Below are positions 2,294 to 43,481 of a stretch of 43,481 nucleotides of DNA, in pieces (within the stretch, counting starts at the first letter, position 1; each line of letters begins with the position of its first letter). The position numbers and the translations under genes were made by a program. The notes below the pieces were generated by a model, which was not told where the DNA came from, searched no databases, and saw nothing but the letters and a program-made list of their open reading frames with translations. The DNA is from Desulfobacteraceae bacterium (lineage in GTDB: Bacteria > Desulfobacterota > Desulfobacteria > Desulfobacterales > RPRI01): contig JAABQB010000023.1 of NCBI GenBank assembly GCA_011391695.1, positions 1-43,481 of the forward strand. Reading direction: 5' to 3'.

Positions 2294-2389
2294 ATTTCCC
2301 ATTTTTTATCCTCTGATCTTACTAAATACCTCGGTCCTCGAATGGTATTTTCGAGATCTTTGCATAACACCCAAAAATCTCTTTTCTTA

Positions 2390-2697
2390 TTCAGGCAGGT
2401 CTTCTGACTTACGGATCATTCTAATGCCGCACCTTCCCGGACTGAGACCTTTGTATAACGCCCCCTTTTGCCCGATTTCTTCGTCAGACTCAAATTTTAA
2501 TCCTCGAAATACTACAATGTATTCCTGCGGTTAAAATTATCGCCTTCCTCGAACTTGGACAAAATTGGACGTTCTTCAAAGGTCTCGGACTATAATTATC
2601 CAGTGGTTTAATGCGGTTTTCGTCCCCGATTACAGCGGCGGGCCCGTCCCCGATTTTAACGGGGTTCCCTTTTATTTTTTAAATACAAGCACCTGAA
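2390..2697 (-). promoter_or_regulatory. Cobalamin riboswitch (B12 element), interrupted by a MITE
   Basis: On the minus strand the conserved parts occur in order: a P1 arm TTCAGG (2692-2697), AGGTGC, GGGAACCCCG, the core GGGCCCGCCGCTGT, ACCGCATTAAACCACTGG, then after a break GGGAAGGTGCGG, and the B12-box-like AAGTCAGAAGACCTGCC with the closing arm CCTGAA (2390-2395). The aptamer is about 310 bases rather than about 200 because a 143-bp element lies in one peripheral hairpin. Without it the arm reads as a short CTGGA/TCCGG stem. A terminator downstream completes the switch. It probably represses the TonB receptor gene when B12 is plentiful. Confidence 0.9.
2444..2586 (-). mobile_element. Palindromic MITE inserted in the riboswitch, with 5-bp target duplication
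   Basis: A 143-bp non-coding element with perfect 10-bp ends GAGACCTTTG / CAAAGGTCTC. The similarity extends to about 24 of 30 positions (AACGtCC..TTTTGtCC against its mirror). Inner inverted pairs (ATTTTAA/TTAAAAT, AATAC/GTATT at the apex) mean it can fold as one long hairpin. It is flanked by identical GGACT pentamers at 2439-2443 and 2587-2591, as expected for a target duplication. Deleting the element and one pentamer rebuilds a canonical riboswitch hairpin. It has no transposase, so it is a non-autonomous element mobilised in trans. Confidence 0.8.
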
Positions 2698-2708
2698 CGA
2701 TTATGTCT

Positions 2709-2735
2709 GTTATATATTTATATTTTTAAAGTCAA
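2709..2735 (-). promoter_or_regulatory. Possible sigma-70 promoter for the riboswitch transcript
   Basis: On the minus strand TTGACT (2730-2735) and TATAAC (2709-2714) are 15 bases apart in a very AT-rich stretch. Transcription from about 2702 would begin a few bases before the riboswitch P1 arm at 2697. The hexamers are good but the spacing is short, so this is tentative. It lies next to the decayed insertion sequence. Confidence 0.4.
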
Positions 2736-33069: not shown

Positions 33070-34557
33070 ATGAAGACAAAAACAGCTGAAGAATATTCTC
33101 TAAAAGCCATCGAATCCTTCAAAAATCGCCTGATCGTGGTTTCGAAAAATTTTCGGATTCTCGCCGCCAGCAACTCCCAATCCGGAGCTCCTGAAAAGGA
33201 TATCCTTGGGAAGTTTTGCCATCAGGTCTACTATAACAGATCCGAACCCTGCGACAACTGCGCGGTAAAAGTAGCGCTCGGAGAACAGAAACCATCGCTC
33301 TGTCCAAAGCCGGAGCTTGCGTTGCTGAATGGACATCTTCCCTGCTATTATGCCTATCCCATATACAACGGCAACGAAATAGAAGCATTCGTCAGCATGG
33401 ATTTCGACATGCCCGCCATTGGAATGCTGGAAGAGAAATTGAACCGATCTTACGTGCTTATGGAGAGCCTCCTGCTCAACGCAGTCGATTGTGTGGTGGC
33501 CGCTGATATGTTGGGTGAAATATTTCTTTTCAATCACTCGGCAGTGCAGGTTTTCGGTTACAGCAAGGAAGAAGCCTTAAGAATCTTGAATGTAAGGAAT
33601 ATTTATCCCGAAGGCGTTGCCTACGAGATCATGAAGAGACTCAGGAGCAACGAATACGGTGGAAAGGGACGGCTTGAAGGATACCCGGTGGATGTGGTGG
33701 ACAAAAACGGCAATCTTATTCCCATCGGGCTGAATGCATCTATCATATATGAAAATGATCGGGAAATCGCCACCATCGGTTTTTTTCATGACCGAAGAGA
33801 AAAGATCAGGATGCAAAAGGATCTGGACATTGCACAAGTTCAACTTCTGCAGGCGGAAAAAATGGCATCCCTCGGCAAGCTGGCAGCCGGAGTAGCTCAT
33901 CAGCTCAACAATCCTTTGGGCGGTATTACGCTTTTTGCCAAGCTCATGATAGAAGAATACAATTTGCCTGAAAACGCACAAAGCGACCTGAATCGTATCC
34001 TCAAAGATGCGGAAAGATGTCGTGATACAGTCAAGGAACTGCTGGAGTTTACCCGGCAAACCCGCCATCTCATGAAGCCTAACGACTTGAATAAATTGTT
34101 GACAAGAACTCTTTTTTTATTGGAAAATCAGGTACTTTTTCAAAATATCGCCATTCATAAAAATTTTTTGAATGATCTGCCGTTGGTGGTTTCGGACGCC
34201 CAGCAGTTGAATCATCTATTTATGAACATTATCCTCAATGCAGCCCAGGCAATGGATAGCAAAGGAACACTGACGATCAGCACAATGTTATTGGAAAACA
34301 AAGAATGTGTCCGCATCCAGATTTCCGATTCAGGACCGGGCATTCCCCAGAATGTGCTGCCCCATATTTTCGAGCCGTTTTATACTACCAAGGAGGAAGG
34401 CAAAGGAACCGGCCTGGGACTCAGCCTTGCCTATAACATCATTGAAAGTCATGGCGGGCAAATTTCAGCAGAAAACAATCCCGACCATGGTGCAACATTT
34501 ATTATCGACCTGCCGCTAAATCAAAAATACGAGGAAGGAGAAAAGGGTGGTGAATAA
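33070..34557 (+). CDS. PAS-domain sensor histidine kinase
   Basis: A 495-residue kinase with no transmembrane segment, so a cytoplasmic sensor. The N-terminal PAS-like domain (about 20-115) has cysteines in GKFCHQVYYNRSEPCDNC, a pattern seen in many Desulfobacterota sensors that may bind metal or sense redox. A second PAS (about 130-245) precedes the dimerisation helix with phospho-acceptor H277 (GVAHQLNNPLGG) and an HATPase (NAAQAMDSKG, DSGPGIP, GTGLGLSLAYNII). The last 11 bases overlap the next gene, a receiver-kinase, so the two form one signalling unit. Confidence 0.9.
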   Translation: MKTKTAEEYSLKAIESFKNRLIVVSKNFRILAASNSQSGAPEKDILGKFCHQVYYNRSEPCDNCAVKVALGEQKPSLCPKPELALLNGHLPCYYAYPIYNGNEIEAFVSMDFDMPAIGMLEEKLNRSYVLMESLLLNAVDCVVAADMLGEIFLFNHSAVQVFGYSKEEALRILNVRNIYPEGVAYEIMKRLRSNEYGGKGRLEGYPVDVVDKNGNLIPIGLNASIIYENDREIATIGFFHDRREKIRMQKDLDIAQVQLLQAEKMASLGKLAAGVAHQLNNPLGGITLFAKLMIEEYNLPENAQSDLNRILKDAERCRDTVKELLEFTRQTRHLMKPNDLNKLLTRTLFLLENQVLFQNIAIHKNFLNDLPLVVSDAQQLNHLFMNIILNAAQAMDSKGTLTISTMLLENKECVRIQISDSGPGIPQNVLPHIFEPFYTTKEEGKGTGLGLSLAYNIIESHGGQISAENNPDHGATFIIDLPLNQKYEEGEKGGE

Positions 34558-36037
34558 ATCTGAGGGCTTGCACGTACTCGTCGTGGATGATGAGCAGAAT
34601 ATTCGAGATGCTTCTGAACGAATACTAACACGCATGGGATTTAAGGTTTCCAAGGCCTCCCGCGGCGATGAGGCCATTTCATTGTTTAAACAGGAAGGCC
34701 ACTCCATCATTTTTCTCGATTTAAAAATGCCGGGCATGGATGGTATGGATGTACTCAAACAGGTTCGGCAAATGGATGAAGCGGCTCTTGTTATCGTGAT
34801 CACCGGCTACGCTACTCTGGAAACCGCCATTGAGGCCATGAAGCAGGGCGCATATGATTTTATTTCCAAACCCTTTGAGCCGGACCAACTTCGAATCATC
34901 GTCAATCGCGCTTCTGAAAAAATTCAATTGAAAATGGAAGCGGAAAGACTGGCGGCGGCGCGTAAAAAAACCCTTTTTGATTTGAGTACCGAACAAAGCC
35001 GCATCCGTACAATCATCGATTCCCTTCCCAATGGTCTGCTGGTTACCAATAAGAACGGCCAGGTCGTTTTGATGAATCCGGCTTTCAAACAGCTTATCGA
35101 AATCGACCCGGCCAAAGGCATTGGAGAAACCATTGATCAATACCTGCCGGTCCCGGGATTGTGCGACCTGATTCTTAAAATATCGATGGGCAGGTACATA
35201 GACTATGAAGATATCCCGGCTTACGAATTTGCCCTGTCTGAAAATAAGTACCTCATGGCCAAGGGGCAGCCGGTGCTGGGAGAAAAGCGGGAATGTCTCG
35301 GTGCGGTGGTCAACCTTGTCGATATCACGGCCATGAAAGTCTTTGACCGCATGAAATCGGAATTTGTGGCCAAAGTCTCCCATGAACTCAGATCTCCGCT
35401 TGCCACCATTCATGAACAACTGGCCATAGTGCTGAGTGACATTATAGATACTGCCCCTCAAAGCGACCAGCAGATTCTCAGCCGTGCCAAGGAAAAAACC
35501 CACGGGCTCATATCTCTCATCAGCGATCTTCTGGATCTTTCACGCATTGAAGAAGGTTTGATCTGCCAGGAACCCGTACCGGTTCAAATTGATACCCAGT
35601 TGAAGGAGATCATCAAATTTCTGGGCGCAAAAGCCGAAGCCAAGAATCAATCCCTGACCCTCGAAATACAGGAAGGGGGTCTTACGGAAATTCAGGCCGA
35701 TCCGCTGGCACTTGAAAGCATCTTCGGCAATTTGATTACCAATGCCATCAACTATACCCAGAATGGCGGCAATATAAGGGTGGTTGCGGATACGGTAGGC
35801 GGCAATGTCCGCGTCAGGGTCATCGATAACGGATTCGGTATCGATGACAAAAACCAGAAAAAGATTTTCGAAAGATTTTACAGGATAAAAAACGAGAAAA
35901 CCCGTTATATCACCGGCACCGGCTTGGGGCTTCCCATCGTCAAGGAACTGGTGCAGTCTTTGGGCGGGTTTATCGAGGTGGAAAGCGAGGCAGGTCGGGG
36001 GAGTGTTTTCACGGTACTTCTGCCTGTCAACAAGTAG
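34547..36037 (+). CDS. Receiver-PAS-histidine kinase (hybrid response regulator kinase)
   Basis: A 496-residue protein starting at GTG 34547 inside the preceding kinase gene, with GGAGAAAAGG upstream. The receiver occupies about 8-125 with phospho-acceptor D58 (IIFLDLKMPG) and lysine in SKPFEPDQL. A helix and PAS (about 155-265) follow, then a HisKA domain with H279 (KVSHELRSPLATIH) and an HATPase (NLITNAINYTQNGG, DNGFGIDDKN, GTGLGLPIVKELV). The upstream kinase could phosphorylate D58 to tune this second kinase. No DNA-binding output is present, so a further partner is needed. Confidence 0.9.
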   Translation: MVNKSEGLHVLVVDDEQNIRDASERILTRMGFKVSKASRGDEAISLFKQEGHSIIFLDLKMPGMDGMDVLKQVRQMDEAALVIVITGYATLETAIEAMKQGAYDFISKPFEPDQLRIIVNRASEKIQLKMEAERLAAARKKTLFDLSTEQSRIRTIIDSLPNGLLVTNKNGQVVLMNPAFKQLIEIDPAKGIGETIDQYLPVPGLCDLILKISMGRYIDYEDIPAYEFALSENKYLMAKGQPVLGEKRECLGAVVNLVDITAMKVFDRMKSEFVAKVSHELRSPLATIHEQLAIVLSDIIDTAPQSDQQILSRAKEKTHGLISLISDLLDLSRIEEGLICQEPVPVQIDTQLKEIIKFLGAKAEAKNQSLTLEIQEGGLTEIQADPLALESIFGNLITNAINYTQNGGNIRVVADTVGGNVRVRVIDNGFGIDDKNQKKIFERFYRIKNEKTRYITGTGLGLPIVKELVQSLGGFIEVESEAGRGSVFTVLLPVNK

Positions 36038-36145: not shown

Positions 36146-36958
36146 TCAGGGACTTAAGGCCGAAATAAACTCATCCGCCGACAACTGAAGGCCGGTCCAC
36201 AATGAAAAAGTGCGCCGGGCCTGATACGCCAGAGGCTTCAGGCCATCCGCAAACATGATTCTCCTGTCGTTCGCCATATCCTGCCAGAAAGTCTGCTGGC
36301 GATCATAATTCAAATCCATTACCAGCTCGCATTCAGGCAGATCCAGTGAATGAATCAAGGCATTGAATTCAGGCGATTCATCCGGACTTGAAACTGACGT
36401 GGCATTAACGATGAGGTGGACCGGAAGCGACCGCCCTTCCAACTCCGACAACAGAAGGACCTCACCTCCAAAGCGCGATACCATTTTCCGGGCTTCTGCT
36501 TCATCGCGCCCTGAAACAAAAATCGTTTTGGTGCGCAGCCAGTTGAGGATAAACACCACAGCTTTTGCCATGCCGCCGGTTCCGAAAACAACGGCCGATT
36601 TATCCTCGACATCAAATCCGAGCGCGGTTAAGGCATCCATAAATCCGATGGCATTTGTATTGTATCCTTTCAGCTTGTTTCCATTCCGCACGATGGTATT
36701 GATGGCGCCGATTATATTCGCTCCTTCGGACAGGACATCCAGATAGGGGATGACCGCTTCCTTATACGGCACAGTTACATTGGCGCCGGCAATGTTCAAA
36801 ATTCTCAAGCTTTGGATTGCCTGCCCGAGATTTGCCGGGGCGACGTTGAACGGTACATATATTCCCTTGATCCCCATCCGGCTGAATATGGTTGTGAAGA
36901 TCGCGGTGGACTTGGCGCGATATGCCCTTTCATCGCCTATGATGCAATATACCTGCAT
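36146..36958 (-). CDS. AroE-like shikimate dehydrogenase homologue with altered active site
   Basis: A 270-residue member of the AroE/YdiB fold: N-terminal substrate domain, then a Rossmann domain (VVFGTGGMAKAVVFILN). Catalytic Lys66 (NVTVPYKE) and the Gln of the terminal helix (LAYQARRTF) are kept. Asp102 of AroE is Asn102 here (GYNTNAIG), and the shikimate-binding GNPIxHSxSP loop reads GDERAYRAKST with one serine lost. It is the last gene of the Hdr/Met cluster, 18 bases after hdrCB. Classical shikimate dehydrogenase activity is doubtful; a different substrate or a non-catalytic role is possible. Confidence 0.8.
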   Translation of the reverse strand: MQVYCIIGDERAYRAKSTAIFTTIFSRMGIKGIYVPFNVAPANLGQAIQSLRILNIAGANVTVPYKEAVIPYLDVLSEGANIIGAINTIVRNGNKLKGYNTNAIGFMDALTALGFDVEDKSAVVFGTGGMAKAVVFILNWLRTKTIFVSGRDEAEARKMVSRFGGEVLLLSELEGRSLPVHLIVNATSVSSPDESPEFNALIHSLDLPECELVMDLNYDRQQTFWQDMANDRRIMFADGLKPLAYQARRTFSLWTGLQLSADEFISALSP

Positions 36959-36976: not shown

Positions 36977-38296
36977 TTAAGGTCGTGATTCCGCTGGATA
37001 GAGGTTGACGTCCGCCAGGTCGGGTCCAAGATATGTGCGCTCGTTTTCGCCGAGAACACCCAGCGAAAGGCATATCAGCGTCCACAGATGTAGCGTATGA
37101 TATCCTCCGCCGTAATGCTCGGATAAATCATGAACCTGTGCATGGCAGTTATGACAAGGCGTTATGCAATATGCAGCGCCGGTATTCTTGATCTGCTCAT
37201 CTTTCAGTTTCCCGTATGCACGCCTTGCTTCAGGCAGACCTGACTGGAGAAAACCGCCTCCGCCTCCACAACAGTAATTGTTCGACTTGTTCGGCGTCAT
37301 GTCAATAAAGTTATCCTCACCGACAACTGCCTTAACCACGAATCTCAAATCCTCGGCAACAGGATCTCCGAAACTCTTTCTTACAAGCTGGCAGGGGTCC
37401 TGAACAGTAAACTTTACCTTCAGATCCTTATTCCAGTCCGAATTGACTTTCAGCTTTCCTTCCCGGATCCACTGCGCATAACACTGAATAATGCTCTTGA
37501 TTTCAAAATTGTAGGGTATGCTGAATTTTTTCAGTCCGACCCGGACTGCGAAAAGTTCGTGCCCTCACTCCGTATTGAGCCAGACTTTGCATTTCAAATC
37601 ATCCACAGCCTTCGCCTTGACTTCGACAATGCGTTTCCATGACGGGTTATCTGCCATGAACAGGCAATAATTCTCAGCAGCCCAGCCTTTTGAACCGTAT
37701 GTCCAGTCTGCGCCCACAAGATGAAGAATCTTCCACAGGGGCACCATTTCGTCAGGCTCGGTTACAGGTTCTCTCGAATTCTGGTTAAGAAAAAACTCGG
37801 CACCGACCTTGTCCATCGGAGCCTGGAGATTTTCAAATCCTTCCTGATTTTCTCTCACCTCAGCCGCAACATCCTCAACAACAAAACGCCAGTCCTCCTC
37901 GGTTGCCCCCATTGCGCTGCATGTGTCATTCCTGAGCGCCATATCGCATGAGCCGAGTATCCCTTTCGGCCTCTCTTCCCTTGGCCGGCTCCCTCTTACA
38001 TTGAATACCAGCGCCGGTATGTCGATTTTCATTGGACATACATATATGCATCTCTGACACATTGTGCACATCCAGGCCCAGTCGCTCTTTAATAGCTCAT
38101 CATCCATTCCGAGCGCCGCCATGCGCAGGAATTTTCTGGGATCCATTCCTTCGAGTCCCGTAGCCGGGCACCCGGATGAACAGGCTCCGCAGGTAAGACA
38201 GAGATTCAGGTTTCCTTCATCGGGAAGAAGCGCCTTGACCTTATCAATAAATATGCTTCGTTTTCCACGTTTTAAACTGATTACCTCTGATGACAT
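36977..38296 (-). CDS. Fused HdrC-HdrB-like iron-sulfur protein containing selenocysteine (Sec244)
   Basis: A 439-residue protein when the in-frame TGA at 37567-37565 is read as selenocysteine. Residues 28-95 carry two [4Fe-4S] motifs as in HdrC (C33/36/39/43 and C77/80/83/87). The rest is HdrB/DsrK-like: KVWLNTE-U-GH, where relatives have Cys before GH, then one complete CCG domain (C302, C342-C343, C381/C384) whose spacing fits CX31-39CCGX35-36CXXC. Without read-through the gene would end before its CCG domain, whose nearest start (TTG 37348) has no ribosome-binding site. It would pass electrons from HdrA to the methylene-THF reductase or a disulfide partner. Confidence 0.88.
37532..37548 (-). 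promoter_or_regulatory. Bacterial SECIS hairpin for Sec244 of the HdrCB protein
   Basis: In the mRNA, CAGUCC pairs with GGACUG (a seventh G-C pair is possible) around a GGGUC/GGU loop. The first loop G is 22 bases after the UGA, within the 16-37 base range of bacterial SECIS elements, and the loop begins GG. SelB would bind here to deliver Sec-tRNA. Confidence 0.8.
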
Positions 38297-38348: not shown

Positions 38349-38738
38349 CTATATCTTCAGCAGTCTCTTAACGCTCTCGGCAATCTGTTCGGCCGATGCC
38401 GGTTTAGGCAGATAATCATCGGCTTCCGTACTCATCCCGTCATAATGTGAATATCGTGTGGAGGTAACAAGCGAAGCGACGGCCGTAAGAAGAACAATGG
38501 GAATACCCGAATATTTATCATCACTTTTTAAAGTTGAACATACCTTGTAACCGTCAATCTCAGGCATCATGACATCAAGGACAATTGCATCCGGAGGATT
38601 GCTCCTGACCTTGGCAAGACCTTCTGCCCCATCGTATGCAAGTTCAACTTCAAAACCTTCCTTCTCCAGACCCTTTTTAACAATCATCGAGAAATCAGGT
38701 TCATCATCCACTACAAGAATTCTCTTTTTACCACTCAT
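38349..38738 (-). CDS. Single-domain response regulator (CheY-like)
   Basis: A 129-residue receiver with no output domain: RILVVDDEPDFS (acidic pair), AIVLDVMMPEIDG (phospho-Asp), LTAVA and YLPKPASAEQI (Lys). The ATG at 38738 has AGGAG seven bases upstream; a GTG two codons earlier is rejected. About ten extra residues (STRYSHYDGMSTEA) sit before the KP loop. It lies between metF and hdrCB on the same strand, an unusual place for a stand-alone receiver. It may regulate the electron-transfer complex by protein contact. Confidence 0.88.
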   Translation of the reverse strand: MSGKKRILVVDDEPDFSMIVKKGLEKEGFEVELAYDGAEGLAKVRSNPPDAIVLDVMMPEIDGYKVCSTLKSDDKYSGIPIVLLTAVASLVTSTRYSHYDGMSTEADDYLPKPASAEQIAESVKRLLKI

Positions 38739-38843
38739 CAGCACTCTCCTTTAATTCTTCAGGAAATTGATATTTGTACGTCTTAAGTCTCTATTTTTCT
38801 CAAGTTTGCCTGAAATATTAATATCACAGAACAGTCAGAAAAA

Positions 38844-39776
38844 TCAATCAACTTTAGGCCTTGGATAAAGCCCTGTACTTTCAACTATTTCAGGAACCTT
38901 TTCTTCCCATTCTATCGCCATTATGTGAAAGCCTTTAACTCCCTCAACCTCTTTTAAACGCTGAATCGATTCGATGCATATCTTAATGCCTTCTTCGGCC
39001 TGTTTTTCCTTTGGAGTGGCGGCCATTCTTTTTACGACATCGTCCGGAACATCCATTCCCGGAACCCGATTTTTCATATATTTTGCCATACCGGCGGTTT
39101 TTAAAGGGGTAAGCCCTGCTAAGATATGGACTTTTTCATGCAGACCCCTTTCTCTCACCATTTTCATCCACAGCTCAAACTTCTCAAGATTATAAATACA
39201 CTGGGTCTGTATGAATTCAGCGCCGGCGGCAATCTTCTTTGCAAGGCGCGGAACTCTTATTTCAAAAGGATCCGCAAAAGGATTTGCGGCGGCGCCAACA
39301 AACATTCTGGGGGGACGATCAATATCGCCGCCACCAAGAAATTTCCCTTCATCACGCATATGTCTTACCGTTTGAAGCAGTTGCATCGAATCAAGATCAT
39401 GAACGTTTTGTCCCTGAGCACAGTCTCCAAAACTCTGATGGTCTCCGGAGAGGCAAAGCATGTTGAAAATATCGAAGGCGGCAGCTCCAAGTATATCGCT
39501 CTGAATGGCTATCCTGTTCCTGTCGCGTGTTACCATCTGAAGAACAGGCTCAAGTCCCATTAACTTAAGGCGTATGCAGGCCGCAAGGCTGCAGAGGCGT
39601 GTAACGGAAGTCTGGTTATCCGTTATATTGATGGCATCTACATGATCCTTTATCAGGTTTGCTTTATGCACAATATGTTCTATGTTGCTGCCGCGCGGAG
39701 GGCCGCACTCCGAAGTAACGGCAAGATGACCTGCGGCAAGAATTTTCTCCAGTTTACTCGGTGTTTTGCAATTCAT
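38844..39776 (-). CDS. metF: 5,10-methylenetetrahydrofolate reductase, MetF subunit
   Basis: A 310-residue FAD-dependent TIM-barrel enzyme that reduces methylene-THF to methyl-THF, here most likely in the methyl branch of the Wood-Ljungdahl pathway. Signatures are VTSECGPPRGS (catalytic Glu region), DAINITDNQTSVTRL, MVTRDRNRIAIQSDILGAAAF, CLSGDHQSFGD, GAEFIQTQCIYNLEKF and HILAGLTPLKTAGMAKYM. Its ATG overlaps the metV stop by four bases. The MetV and Hdr neighbours suggest the MetFV-Hdr type that uses an iron-sulfur electron chain instead of NADH alone. Confidence 0.95.
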   Translation of the reverse strand: MNCKTPSKLEKILAAGHLAVTSECGPPRGSNIEHIVHKANLIKDHVDAINITDNQTSVTRLCSLAACIRLKLMGLEPVLQMVTRDRNRIAIQSDILGAAAFDIFNMLCLSGDHQSFGDCAQGQNVHDLDSMQLLQTVRHMRDEGKFLGGGDIDRPPRMFVGAAANPFADPFEIRVPRLAKKIAAGAEFIQTQCIYNLEKFELWMKMVRERGLHEKVHILAGLTPLKTAGMAKYMKNRVPGMDVPDDVVKRMAATPKEKQAEEGIKICIESIQRLKEVEGVKGFHIMAIEWEEKVPEIVESTGLYPRPKVD

Positions 39777-40441
39777 AACTGCACATCCTCCCTCGCAACT
39801 TTTCGTGGTCCCCCGGCCCTGTCGGTAGACCAGTCTTTCAAAGGAATAATATTTTCATAATCGTCAATTTTGCCAATCGCCTTGAGGCGGTCGACTATAA
39901 GCTGCCATGCACAGTCAACATCTTTGCTTATTTCACACTTTCCATTCGTGGAGCCGCCGCATGGCCCGTTTAAAAGTCTCTTTGCGCATCTTGAAACCGG
40001 ACATATACCGGCTGTTTTTGCAAGAATGCACTTACCGCATGCCTGGCACCTTTCCGTCCACAATCCACGTTTTTCGGTAACACCCAGAAAACAGGTGTTG
40101 ACGCCTGGATATACCGGCAGGGCCTGATATTTTTCGGCCATGAACTGAACCCCCACCCCGCATGCCAGCGAGAGAACCGCATCGTACTTATCCACCCTGT
40201 CCCGTATCTCTTCAAGATACTCATGGTCGCATTGACGCTCCAGTGTCACCTCATCAATTTTTACATCCTTTCCCTGATTCAGAAAATACATCCGGAGGGC
40301 CGAGGCCAGTATTCCCACTTCCTTTTTTCCTCCGGCCTCGCAGACTGTCACACATTCGTTGCAGCCCAGTATCAGGATCTTGCTGTAATTCTCGACCTCT
40401 TTGATTATCTCCTCTATCGGCTTTTTGTCGGCTACAATCAT
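39773..40441 (-). CDS. metV: Methylene-THF reductase iron-sulfur subunit MetV
   Basis: A 222-residue protein of the MetV / methylene-THF reductase C-terminal family. The N-terminal part (ILILGCNECVTVCEAGGKKEV) is typical; the C-terminal half binds iron-sulfur clusters (CQACGKCILAKTAGICPVSRC, NGPCGGSTNGKCEI). MetV forms a heterodimer with MetF and feeds it electrons. Overlap with metF (ATGA) indicates stoichiometric translation. It starts 68 bases after mvhD. Confidence 0.93.
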   Translation of the reverse strand: MIVADKKPIEEIIKEVENYSKILILGCNECVTVCEAGGKKEVGILASALRMYFLNQGKDVKIDEVTLERQCDHEYLEEIRDRVDKYDAVLSLACGVGVQFMAEKYQALPVYPGVNTCFLGVTEKRGLWTERCQACGKCILAKTAGICPVSRCAKRLLNGPCGGSTNGKCEISKDVDCAWQLIVDRLKAIGKIDDYENIIPLKDWSTDRAGGPRKVAREDVQL

Positions 40442-40509: not shown

Positions 40510-40944
40510 TTAAGCTGCCTTCTTTTTAGAAGCCAATTTAATCGGATTCGGGCCAAGTTGTCTTATAAGCTCGTCCATTTCTAATGCATATTGGGCAAAT
40601 TTTGGACCCTCTGCTGAAGATAGATTCCTCATTTGAACTCTTTCACCGCCAATCCCGATTGAATCAAGTATTATTTTGGCCTGTTCTATTCTTTTTCTTG
40701 CCCTTAAATTACCACTGTTGTAGTGGCATTCCCCTTCCAGACAACCAACCGCATATACTCCGTCAGCGCCTTTTTCAAAAGCTCGCAGTATGTGAAGAAT
40801 ATCCACCTTGCCGGTACATGGTACGCGTATGATTTTAATATTAGTCGGATAGCTCAATCTCATGGAACCTGCCAGGTCCGCGGCCGTGTATCCTCAGTAA
40901 TTGCAGCAAAAAGCGATTATTACAGGTTCGAACTCCTGATTCAT
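40510..40944 (-). CDS. mvhD: MvhD-type iron-sulfur subunit containing selenocysteine (Sec17)
   Basis: A 144-residue protein if the in-frame TGA at 40896-40894 is selenocysteine: MNQEFEPVIIAFCCNY-U-GYTAADLAG, where MvhD relatives have CNWCSYAGADLAG. The rest follows the family (IKIIRVPCTGKVD, FEKGADGVYAVGCLEGECHY, VSASEG-like NLSSAEGPKFAQ). MvhD carries a [2Fe-2S] cluster linking HdrA to an electron donor; the methanogen relative VhuD is a known selenoprotein. ATG 40944 overlaps the hdrA stop (ATGA) with GGAGGG upstream. The shorter frame from 40863 would lack the cluster-binding N-terminus. Confidence 0.92.
40864..40879 (-). promoter_or_regulatory. Bacterial SECIS hairpin for Sec17 of MvhD
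   Basis: In the mRNA GGACCU pairs with AGGUUCC, one U being bulged, around a GGC loop. The first loop G is 20 bases after the UGA. A bulged U in the stem and G at the loop start are features of bacterial SECIS elements bound by SelB. Confidence 0.75.
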
Positions 40945-43481
40945 AAAACCCCCTCCAGCAAGGCTTCCACCTTACTCAATATCTGATCATCCTCATACCA
41001 GTTCAACTCAATAGCCTTTGCCGGACATTCAGCAGCGCATACTCCGCAACCGTGGCAAAGCGCAACATCAATCTCGCTGACTCCATCAGCATTGATTCTC
41101 GGAACACCATACGGACATGACCTGACACATATCAGGCAGGAAGCACACTTTTCCGCCTCAACACAGGCAGTAACAGCAGATAGCGTCAGAAAATCCCGTG
41201 AAAGGAATGTTGTGGCTCTTGAAGCGGCAGCCAGAGCCTGAGGAATGGCTTCCGTAAGAAGTTTCGGACTGTGCGCGGTTCCGCATACGAAAATGCCGTC
41301 GGTTGCCATATCAACAGGCCTTAACTTTACATGAGCCTCCATGAAATAGCCTTCCGCGTTCAGGGCAAGCTTTATAATCGAAGATAATTCAGTGGTGTCC
41401 GTAGGCCTCATCCCTGCGCTTAAACCGAGAATATCAGCCTGGACTTTTAAACGGCGGCCCAGGACATGATCCCTGAATGTAACTGTCAGACCGTCATCGG
41501 TTGATTCCACCACAGGCATATCATCAGGCGTATACCTGAAGAAGAAAATACCCTTGCGCCTTGCCTCCGTGTAATAATCCTCCAATAGTCCGTACATCCT
41601 CATATCTCTGTACAGGATATAAATGTTGACATCCGGATTCAGCTCCTTGATATGAAGAGCGTTCTTTACAGCGCTCTGGCAGCATATTCTCGAGCAGTTG
41701 GGATTCTCATCGTTTCTGGATCCGACGCATTGTATCATTACCACGCTGTCAAGGCCTGCGGATCCTTCTTTATTAAGGCGACCGGCAAGTTCTATCTGTG
41801 TCATAACTCTTGAATCCTGCCCGTACAAGAACTCGGTAGGAATGTACTCGTTGGCGCCAGTGGCAAGAATTACAACACCGTGATCGATTTTCCTCTCATA
41901 CATCCCGGGTCCTACAATCAACTCCGTGGTAAAATTTCCCTTGAATCCTGAAAAGCCGACTATAAGGGACTGGGTTAAAACCTGTATTTTGGCATGGTTG
42001 TTTACTTTTTTGATCAGATCCGAAACATAAGGGCCTATTTTCTCTCCTTCAATGGTTGATGTCAGGCGGTTCGCCGTGCCGCCAAGCTGCGGTTCTTTTT
42101 CGACAAGGACAGTCTCAAAACCCTGGTCTGCAAGACCAAGGGCTGCATTCATGCCGGCTACACCGCCGCCGATAATAAGGGCTCTTTTAACAACCGGTAT
42201 TCTCTTTTCATGGAGAGGATTCAGAGTTGCAACTCGCGCAATGGCCATTTTAACGAGTTCTTTGGCCTTTTCTGTGGCCTTAACAGGGTCATTGGAATGC
42301 GTCCATGAATCCTGGTTCCGTATGTTTGCCATTTCAAAGAGGTATTTATTTAAACCGCAGGCTTCCAGGGTATCCATGAAAATCGCTTCATGGGTCTTGG
42401 GAGTGCAGGCTGAAACAACAACTCTGTTAAGACTCTTCTCCCTGATAATCTCCTTCATCCTGTCCTGAGAATCCTGGGAACACGTAAAAAGATTCTCCCC
42501 GGTAAAAACAACATGGGGAAGCCCGGAAGCATATTCGCATACGGCTTTAACATCAACTACACCGGCAATATTAATGCCGCAATCACAAACAAATACTCCG
42601 ATTCTCGGCTCCTGTCCCGCCACATCAATTTCATCAGGAACCTTGACGGTTTTTGTCCGTGTTCCCCTTGCTTCGTTCAACTTCCCTCCGGCAGCGCATG
42701 CGGCAGCGCTTGCCTCAATAACGGAGCTCGGAATATCCTTGGGGCCCTGGAAAATTCCGCAGGCATATACGCCGGCTCTTGACGTTTCAATCGGAGTAAA
42801 AGGTTTACTCGATGCAAAACTGTACTTGTCCAAATCTATATTGAGGCGCTTTGCCATTTCCACTGTTGACTGCGGAACCTTCAGGCCGACTGAAAGAACA
42901 ACCATATCGAATTCTTCTTCCCGGATATCTCCTGATTCATCTGCGTACCTTACAAGAATATCTTTGCTCTCTTGGATTTCGTTCATAGTATGAACGCGCG
43001 CCTTGATGAAACGAACTCCATCCTTATCTTTTGCCCTGTTGTAATATTTCTCGTAATCTTTCCCGAATGTACGCATATCCATGTTGAATATCGCGCAATC
43101 GACACCGCCATGAGCGTGTTCCTTTGCAATCATGGCCTCTTTCACGGCATACATGCAGCATACCGACGAACAGTATCCGTTCCCGCACTTGTTGTTGTCT
43201 CTCGATCCGACACACTGGAGCCATGCAATTTTTTTCGGCTCCTTCTTATCCGACGGCCTCACGAGATGTCCCATTGTCGGCCCTGATGCGCTGAGTATTC
43301 TCTCAAATTCCAGGCTGGTCAACACGTTTGGACTTGTCTTGTAATGATAAAATTCATCGAGAACCGATGGATCAAAGGCATCACTTCCCGGGCAAAGTAT
43401 GATGGAGCCGACCTCAATCTCTTTTTCAGATGTTTTCTGGCTGTGGTCAACCGCGCCGGCAAGACAGGCATCAACACACTG
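40941..43481 (-). CDS. hdrA: HdrA-like flavoprotein, tandem fusion, 5' end outside the window (partial)
   Basis: At least 846 residues, open to the window edge. The visible part starts in a first HdrA module (ILCPGSDAFDPS, WLQCVGSRDN with CGNGYCSSVCC), continues through a full second module with FAD/NAD loop ALIIGGGVAGMNAALGLADQ, GSRNDENPNCSRICCQSA and a C-terminal ferredoxin of two [4Fe-4S] clusters (CVEAEKCASCLICVRSCP; CHGCGVCAAECP). HdrA carries the bifurcating FAD. The tandem form resembles HdrA2-type proteins of sulfate reducers and acetogens. The GTG at 43325 is not the start. Its stop overlaps mvhD. Confidence 0.92.
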   Translation of the reverse strand, partial: QCVDACLAGAVDHSQKTSEKEIEVGSIILCPGSDAFDPSVLDEFYHYKTSPNVLTSLEFERILSASGPTMGHLVRPSDKKEPKKIAWLQCVGSRDNNKCGNGYCSSVCCMYAVKEAMIAKEHAHGGVDCAIFNMDMRTFGKDYEKYYNRAKDKDGVRFIKARVHTMNEIQESKDILVRYADESGDIREEEFDMVVLSVGLKVPQSTVEMAKRLNIDLDKYSFASSKPFTPIETSRAGVYACGIFQGPKDIPSSVIEASAAACAAGGKLNEARGTRTKTVKVPDEIDVAGQEPRIGVFVCDCGINIAGVVDVKAVCEYASGLPHVVFTGENLFTCSQDSQDRMKEIIREKSLNRVVVSACTPKTHEAIFMDTLEACGLNKYLFEMANIRNQDSWTHSNDPVKATEKAKELVKMAIARVATLNPLHEKRIPVVKRALIIGGGVAGMNAALGLADQGFETVLVEKEPQLGGTANRLTSTIEGEKIGPYVSDLIKKVNNHAKIQVLTQSLIVGFSGFKGNFTTELIVGPGMYERKIDHGVVILATGANEYIPTEFLYGQDSRVMTQIELAGRLNKEGSAGLDSVVMIQCVGSRNDENPNCSRICCQSAVKNALHIKELNPDVNIYILYRDMRMYGLLEDYYTEARRKGIFFFRYTPDDMPVVESTDDGLTVTFRDHVLGRRLKVQADILGLSAGMRPTDTTELSSIIKLALNAEGYFMEAHVKLRPVDMATDGIFVCGTAHSPKLLTEAIPQALAAASRATTFLSRDFLTLSAVTACVEAEKCASCLICVRSCPYGVPRINADGVSEIDVALCHGCGVCAAECPAKAIELNWYEDDQILSKVEALLEGVL

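Follow-up and report, generated by a model that had tools for sequence, protein, structure and literature searches.

A predicted selenoprotein of HdrC-CCG type encoded beside hdrA, mvhD, metV and metF in a member of the Desulfobacteraceae

A 43,481-nucleotide stretch of a Desulfobacteraceae genome (contig JAABQB010000023.1, assembly GCA_011391695.1; hereafter, the window) carries on its minus strand a gene that plain ORF calling divides in two at an in-frame UGA. The evidence as a whole is best explained, with a probability of roughly 0.8, by a single selenocysteine gene whose product, the HdrC-CCG protein, would act as electron carrier of a module made up of HdrA, MvhD, MetV and MetF. The decoding of UGA 244 as selenocysteine (Sec) under a downstream SECIS hairpin is, on comparative grounds, close to certain, and the HdrC-CCG protein is a member of a selenoprotein kind recognised before.

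Gene frame and codon 244

The minus-strand frame runs from 38296 to 36977 and comprises 243 codons, a TGA at 37567-37565 (codon 244), a further 195 codons and a TAA; frame, coordinates and codon counts had been given correctly in the first-pass annotation of this DNA. With the TGA read as Sec, the frame yields a single protein of 439 amino acids with U244. A truncated gene plus a stray 3' fragment had been forecast for standard annotation, and the table-11 ORF list indeed splits the gene into a 243-aa ORF and a TTG-started downstream piece of 123 aa; the two are now settled as one gene.

36977..38296, minus strand: HdrC-CCG fusion gene, predicted selenoprotein of 439 aa with U244 (frame, Pfam domains, homologues)
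37565..37567, minus strand: in-frame UGA, codon 244, read as selenocysteine (TGA in 142 and Cys in 21 of 163 homologues)
38024..38209, minus strand: HdrC-like 4Fe-4S dicluster domain, residues 30-91, eight invariant Cys (Pfam PF13183 and invariant columns)
37133..37408, minus strand: CCG domain, residues 297-388, with C302, C342, C343, C381 and C384 (Pfam PF02754 and invariant columns)
37532..37548, minus strand: bacterial SECIS hairpin of 6 bp plus an inner closing pair, with one invariant loop G (alignment, covariation, folding)

The two Pfam domains lie on opposite sides of the TGA. Judged by sequence, the five cysteines of the CCG domain are those expected to ligate a single noncubane [4Fe-4S] cluster, and the product is of the DsrK/TmcB/HdrD sort, with two predicted cubane-cluster sites and one predicted noncubane-cluster site. 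The CCG spacing is C302-x39-C342-C343-x37-C381-xx-C384, and the domain consensus is CX31-39CCX35-36CXXC; the second gap of 37 exceeds this by one residue, so that an earlier description of the spacing as exact was too strong. The residues around codon 244 had likewise been matched to the Cys-Gly-His site of HdrB/DsrK-like proteins. The DsrK half of that comparison stands, a DsrK/TmcB-like protein of the same genome (L171, G000:C39:69123-70280; 31-33% identity) having Cys rather than Sec in TE-C-GH together with a full second CCG set, and the HdrB half is too strong, HdrB chains showing VCNGC at this place in a weak alignment.

Homologues were drawn from 59 genomes (own included), from the best 80 of 433 relatives' loci, a set that leans towards close relatives because the best 80 were taken, and from 297 genomes of the phylum, 38 of which hold a match at E <= 1e-100. 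Cultured carriers of the gene include Desulfopila aestuarii (L066), Desulfonema magnum (L074) and Desulfosediminicola flagellatus (L071). Among 163 distinct homologous translations, codon 244 is TGA in 142, TGC in 18 and TGT in three, with no other codon and never TAA or TAG; matches with E > 1e-20 or not spanning residue 244 are excluded from this count and identical translations are merged, though a gene retrieved from two loci whose matches end differently may have been counted double. The alternation of Sec and Cys that had been proposed as a check is thus what the alignment holds. The 142 Sec-type genes end in TAA (77), TAG (48) or TGA (16), the stop of one not being reached. Across nine close pairs, dN is 0.03-0.14 before as well as after the UGA, and in the five pairs with dS computable on both sides dN/dS is 0.03-0.10 upstream and 0.01-0.08 downstream, values which indicate that purifying selection carries on past codon 244.

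These patterns bear on three other explanations. The UGA could be a true stop between an HdrC-like gene and a separately translated (or reinitiated) CCG gene, as the table-11 split with its TTG-started 123-aa ORF would have it; against this, no in-frame start-like position within the first 60 codons after the UGA is common to more than 24 of the 142 Sec-type sequences, so that the separate conserved start named earlier as grounds for doubt did not appear, TAA and TAG never occur at codon 244, 21 homologues run through continuously with Cys, and the downstream hairpin covaries. This explanation is very improbable. A pseudogene decaying after a nonsense mutation, for which nothing speaks beyond the stop itself, has a negligible chance and was rejected, being contradicted by the conservation of the TGA and its flanks: the same TGA recurs in 142 distinct sequences from many genera, with low dN/dS on both sides. 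An altered genetic code with UGA read as tryptophan or another residue would also leave the frame open, but TGA ends genes here (hdrA at 40943-40941 and 16 of the 141 terminal stops reached in Sec-type genes), the homologues have Cys and not Trp, and Sec machinery (selA, selB, selD) is present; its probability is likewise minute. The two-gene and altered-code explanations were rejected as well.

To follow the distribution of Sec and Cys, a quick maximum-likelihood tree was built with residue 244 masked from 146 rows, 125 with Sec and 21 with Cys, sequences under 330 aa and near-copies among the 163 having been dropped. At least six Sec/Cys changes are needed and the starred branches force six, against about 20 with shuffled labels. 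The Cys copies form several separate groups and also occur as paralogues beside Sec copies in one genome (for example in genomes G005 and G006). A second, distant (36-37%) Sec paralogue with the UGH motif is found in the window's own genome (L152, G000:C18:41090-42220), adjoining a split hdrA with a fused MvhD-like domain.

The SECIS hairpin and the selenium machinery

The hairpin CAGUCC-GGGUC-GGACUG (37548-37532) spans 17-33 nt downstream of UGA 244 and places its five-base loop 22 nt from the UGA, sequence and distance both agreeing with what had been reported earlier. A 36-nt piece folds at -11.8 kcal/mol (z -2.68; 3 of 200 shuffles as good), and a 51-nt piece is less striking and unremarkable when taken alone (z -1.39; 21 of 200). 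When the same peptide is recoded synonymously, 17 of 5000 recodings of the window's own gene fold as well, and a value of 0.05 or less in this test is reached by 127 of 136 Sec genes and by none of 20 Cys genes, homologues below 50% identity being left out. Median hairpin energies are -11.2 kcal/mol in the 142 Sec genes, -6.25 in the 18 TGC genes and -2.7 in the three TGT genes; by the energies of these 21 Cys genes and the recoding test on 20 of them, the hairpin was not found in Cys homologues.

Covariation was assessed in 134 Sec-type stretches, where 91.7% of cells pair, compared with 10-41.5% when the partner is slid by one to three columns. The covariation score of 0.237 (shuffled mean 0.109) and the 74 cells changed on both sides (23.0 in shuffles) are each reached by none of 500 shuffles; the number of pairs with double changes, five of eight, is reached by 63 of 500. 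In 31 sequences the G-C pair that closes the loop is replaced by U-A, A-U or U-G; the outermost pair of the eight does not form in 74 of 134, and the apical-loop G27 is invariant. RNAalifold recovers six of the eight pairs unasked. The SECIS interpretation made from the single sequence is thus borne out by a hairpin kept through compensatory changes in the 134 sequences and not found in the Cys genes. In three Cys-type genes (L138, L140, L212) the sequence following codon 244 shows, as judged by eye, a lasting likeness to the SECIS stem and is possibly a fossil of a change from Sec to Cys.

As regards the machinery for Sec insertion, a search for selB and selC had been suggested as a check, and its outcome is divided. 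The own genome encodes selB (386.1 bits), selA (627.8 bits) and selD (373.9 bits), all over cut-off, and its SelD (L048, G000:C39:18285-19208, with an in-frame UGA) reads ...ASG-U-AAK, so that it looks like a selenoprotein itself; the UxxK motif of SelD is listed in PMC13188914. No selC was found over cut-off by the Rfam model in the 116-contig draft (150 of 237 first-look candidates scored), the best match reaching 45.9 bits against a gathering score of 47 and being called tRNA-Ser by ARAGORN, and none was found in the assembly by same-genus selC DNA, by selC flanks or at the place (C56) syntenic to the selC of a relative (G001). A tRNA-Sec match of at least 73 bits is present in 22 of 30 genomes (the own genome being among the 30 and without one), and ARAGORN called tRNA-Sec for all six relatives' matches checked. 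We read the missing selC as an assembly gap, one missing piece of the machinery. Four same-genus genomes (G002, G003, G004, G009) are also without a tRNA-Sec match over cut-off.

Gene neighbourhood and proposed role

The gene belongs to a same-strand run of hdrA, mvhD, metV, metF, a response regulator, the hdrCB(U) gene and an aroE-like gene, the response regulator sitting between the HdrC-CCG gene and metF.

40941..43481, minus strand: hdrA, truncated on its 5' side where the contig stops (profile match)
40510..40944, minus strand: mvhD/frhD, likewise carrying an in-frame UGA, at 40896-40894 (CNYU, CxxU motif; frame, homologue comparison)
39773..40441, minus strand: metV-like protein (DUF5981, methylene-THF reductase C-terminal; Pfam PF12225)
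38844..39776, minus strand: metF-like methylene-THF reductase (Pfam PF02219)
38349..38744, minus strand: response-regulator receiver protein inside the gene run (Pfam PF00072)
36146..36958, minus strand: shikimate dehydrogenase-like (AroE) gene, downstream neighbour in 8 of 47 loci (profile match, neighbour count)

The mvhD gene appears to be a second Sec gene. Its table-11 ORF starts at 40863, losing the N-terminus, and among 107 distinct MvhD-like sequences the CxxU place holds TGA in 59, Cys in 33, Ser in 13, His in one and Gly in one. Its hairpin is weak (-6.0 kcal/mol; 124 of 200 shuffles as good) and on energy grounds unremarkable; the argument for Sec comes from the TGA in 59 of 107 sequences. 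Elsewhere in the window lie a pair of histidine-kinase genes (33070-36037, plus strand), of which one includes a receiver domain and which in some relatives (L154, L178, L188) remain adjacent to the hdrCB-aroE end, and a cobalamin riboswitch (2377-2711, minus strand; 103.3 bits).

Neighbours were counted at the 47 of 80 loci with at least 4 kb upstream and at least 3 kb downstream, 33 being dropped for too little flank. HdrA is near at 34, MvhD at 34, MetV or MetF at 28, all four at 26 and none at 11. The window's own order, hdrA-mvhD-metV-metF-hdrCB, occurs at 11 loci, hdrA-mvhD-hdrCB-metV-metF at 12 (some with an extra hdrA or mvhD) and metV-metF-hdrA-mvhD-hdrCB at three. The gene set of a methylene-THF reductase module of Hdr type (hdrA, mvhD, metV and metF with an HdrBC protein) is thus clustered in the window and at 26 of 47 loci. 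In further relatives' stretches with at least 3 kb to each side, 14 of the 27 Sec loci have metV/metF as neighbours, as does one of the 12 Cys loci, the single Cys case and one of the 14 Sec cases depending on a 25-26% MetF match. Given the 11 of 47 loci without partners and the 13 of 27 Sec loci without metV/metF, the link to methylene-THF reductase appears strong in the window's type and not general for the subfamily. Two further matches in the own genome exceed their cut-offs, dsrA at 616.3 bits (adjoined by a second DsrA-like match) and the acetyl-CoA synthase domain CdhC at 235.8 bits, and the host is therefore likely a sulfite-reducing bacterium with an acetyl-CoA pathway.

From this setting, it is moderately probable that the HdrC-CCG protein is the electron-carrying subunit of an HdrA-MvhD-MetV-MetF methylene-tetrahydrofolate reductase of Hdr type, connecting C1 metabolism with further electron carriers of the cytoplasm, and the module's two selenoprotein subunits would presumably be MvhD and the HdrC-CCG protein. 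Somewhat less probable, though with a sizeable share of the odds, is a real selenoprotein that serves as a general DsrC- or ferredoxin-linked carrier (like TmcB, HmcF or DsrK) and stands near metVF by happenstance in some genomes. The highest-scoring NCBIfam models, HmcF, TmcB and DsrK (each far under its cut-off), agree with such a carrier, as do the 11 of 47 loci without hdrA, mvhD or metVF, one of three viewed (L078) lying beside a formate dehydrogenase-like gene, and the 12 Cys-type loci, where HdrA is near nine, MvhD near eight and MetF near one; MetV or MetF at 28 of 47 loci, 26 of them with all four partners in three main orders, argue against it, since the few metF genes per genome would presumably give far fewer neighbours by chance. 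At L078 (6001-13308), the Sec copy without hdrA or metVF adjoins an opposite-strand gene whose resemblance to formate dehydrogenase was judged by eye. Under the module reading, the HdrC-CCG protein becomes a candidate electron partner of methylene-THF reductase in bacteria with both dsrA and acetyl-CoA synthase genes.

Cluster sites and comparison with known systems

An AlphaFold2 model of the HdrC-CCG protein (pLDDT 80.5, pTM 0.83, from a shallow alignment of 38 rows) has EtfD of Mycobacterium smegmatis (PDB 9ojn) as its best solved fold, at Z 23.1 with 367 residues matched, followed by HdrB chains at Z 19.6-20.6. No DsrK, TmcB or HmcF chain is among the matches listed in this search or in one with Foldseek, which excludes nothing. 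Across 27 diverse members the eight cubane-site Cys, C302, C342, C343, C381, C384, residue 244 and His246 are invariant; among 38 close members the same holds for C211, which lies in the first CCG half. In the HMM alignment to EtfD, counted along the printed alignment, residue 244 falls on Cys581 and His246 on His583. In EtfD, according to PMC13083937, Cys581 helps to bind a linear [3Fe-4S] cluster, and the noncubane cluster has His583 as a ligand beside Cys637, 672, 673, 709 and 712. Glu247 stands in the place of EtfD Cys584, and the 27 diverse members share no other invariant Cys in their first CCG half; for these reasons the EtfD-type linear [3Fe-4S] cluster is probably absent, leaving Sec244 alone beside the noncubane cluster. 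In close members C211 may be a further ligand beside Sec244, and it would not make a full second set.

That Sec244 lies beside the noncubane cluster, at the place of a second cluster in EtfD and of a second, catalytic one in HdrB, and serves as a redox-active selenol for disulfide chemistry or fast electron relay is an evenly balanced proposal. In the mechanism envisaged, MetVF would oxidise methyl-THF or reduce methylene-THF, electrons would pass via MvhD and the HdrA flavin to the two cubane clusters and then the noncubane cluster of the HdrC-CCG protein, and Sec244 would speed thiol/disulfide or electron exchange with the final partner. Sequence-level support covers Sec decoding (comparative), domain make-up and gene clustering; the complex, the direction of electron flow and the final partner we infer. 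A bolder and rather unlikely version is a two-Sec methylene-THF reductase complex of sulfate reducers, in which Sec244 would replace the whole first HdrB CCG cluster and a site of His-capped noncubane [4Fe-4S] cluster plus selenol would reduce a protein or small-molecule disulfide. If this were true, C1 oxidation would be coupled directly to the thiol pool of sulfate respiration.

The selenoprotein kind itself was known. A Sec-containing Fe-S oxidoreductase (GlpC) was listed in 2006 (PMC1794560), and the table of a 2026 review gives 'Fe-S oxidoreductase-like protein, PTHR43551, UGH, 1' among its high-confidence predictions (PMC13188914). The novelty implied by the first-pass annotation is therefore lower than it seemed, the kind and its UGH motif both being published. 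The HdrC-CCG protein has the UGH motif in an Fe-S/CCG oxidoreductase and, like the GlpC-like UGH selenoproteins, comes from the Deltaproteobacteria and lies near hdrA and frhD/mvhD Sec genes; the published operons run glpC-hdrA-frhD-frhG-frhA (hydrogenase), whereas hdrA, mvhD, metV and metF are the neighbours here. The likeness to the UGH kind (reference protein WP_174406253.1) is one of description. With the GlpC equivalog TIGR03379 the protein scores 24.4 bits (cut-off 279.9), and with DsrK, TmcB and HmcF, whose domain order is equal to its own, it reaches 111.5, 163.4 and 177.4 bits, far below the equivalog cut-offs of 400, 735 and 750.

Among characterised or named relatives, HdrD4 (HdrC+HdrB type) and HdrF2 of Desulfobacterium autotrophicum HRM2 have been named selenoproteins (PMC2702500). 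HdrD4 likewise unites HdrC and HdrB domains in a single selenoprotein that lacks transmembrane parts and belongs to a sulfate reducer; it differs in not being placed beside metF in the text available, and the likeness is one of description. The catalytic type of HdrB and HdrD has two complete noncubane sites, whereas the 27 members here have one site plus residue 244. EtfD, the best fold match, aligns its C-x-H with U-G-H but has (PMC13083937) a membrane part and a linear [3Fe-4S] cluster bound by four Cys; of the two Cys in its C581-x-H-C584, only C581 has a counterpart here (U244), the second position being E247.

Clusters of hdrABC-mvhD-metVF with fused hdrBC and phoBR neighbours have been described in marine Chloroflexi (PMC5736913), and metF-HdrABC in Seep-SRB1g (PMC10553843). 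They resemble the window in having hdrA, mvhD, metV and metF together, a fused HdrCB in some and two-component genes nearby, but the available text names no Sec in their HdrBC, whereas HdrCB and MvhD both contain UGA here, and one HdrB cluster site of the two is incomplete in HdrCB. The available text of the literature searched names no selenocysteine in an HdrCB protein of a MetVF cluster. To the published systems the present analysis adds, from sequence, that the subfamily often appears beside hdrA, a putative second Sec gene, mvhD, and metV and metF (all four at 26 of 47 loci), and that predicted Sec244 takes the alignment position of an EtfD cluster-ligand Cys, which the noncubane-cluster His follows two residues on. 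A poorly studied UGH selenoprotein kind is thereby extended to a well-defined metabolic setting.
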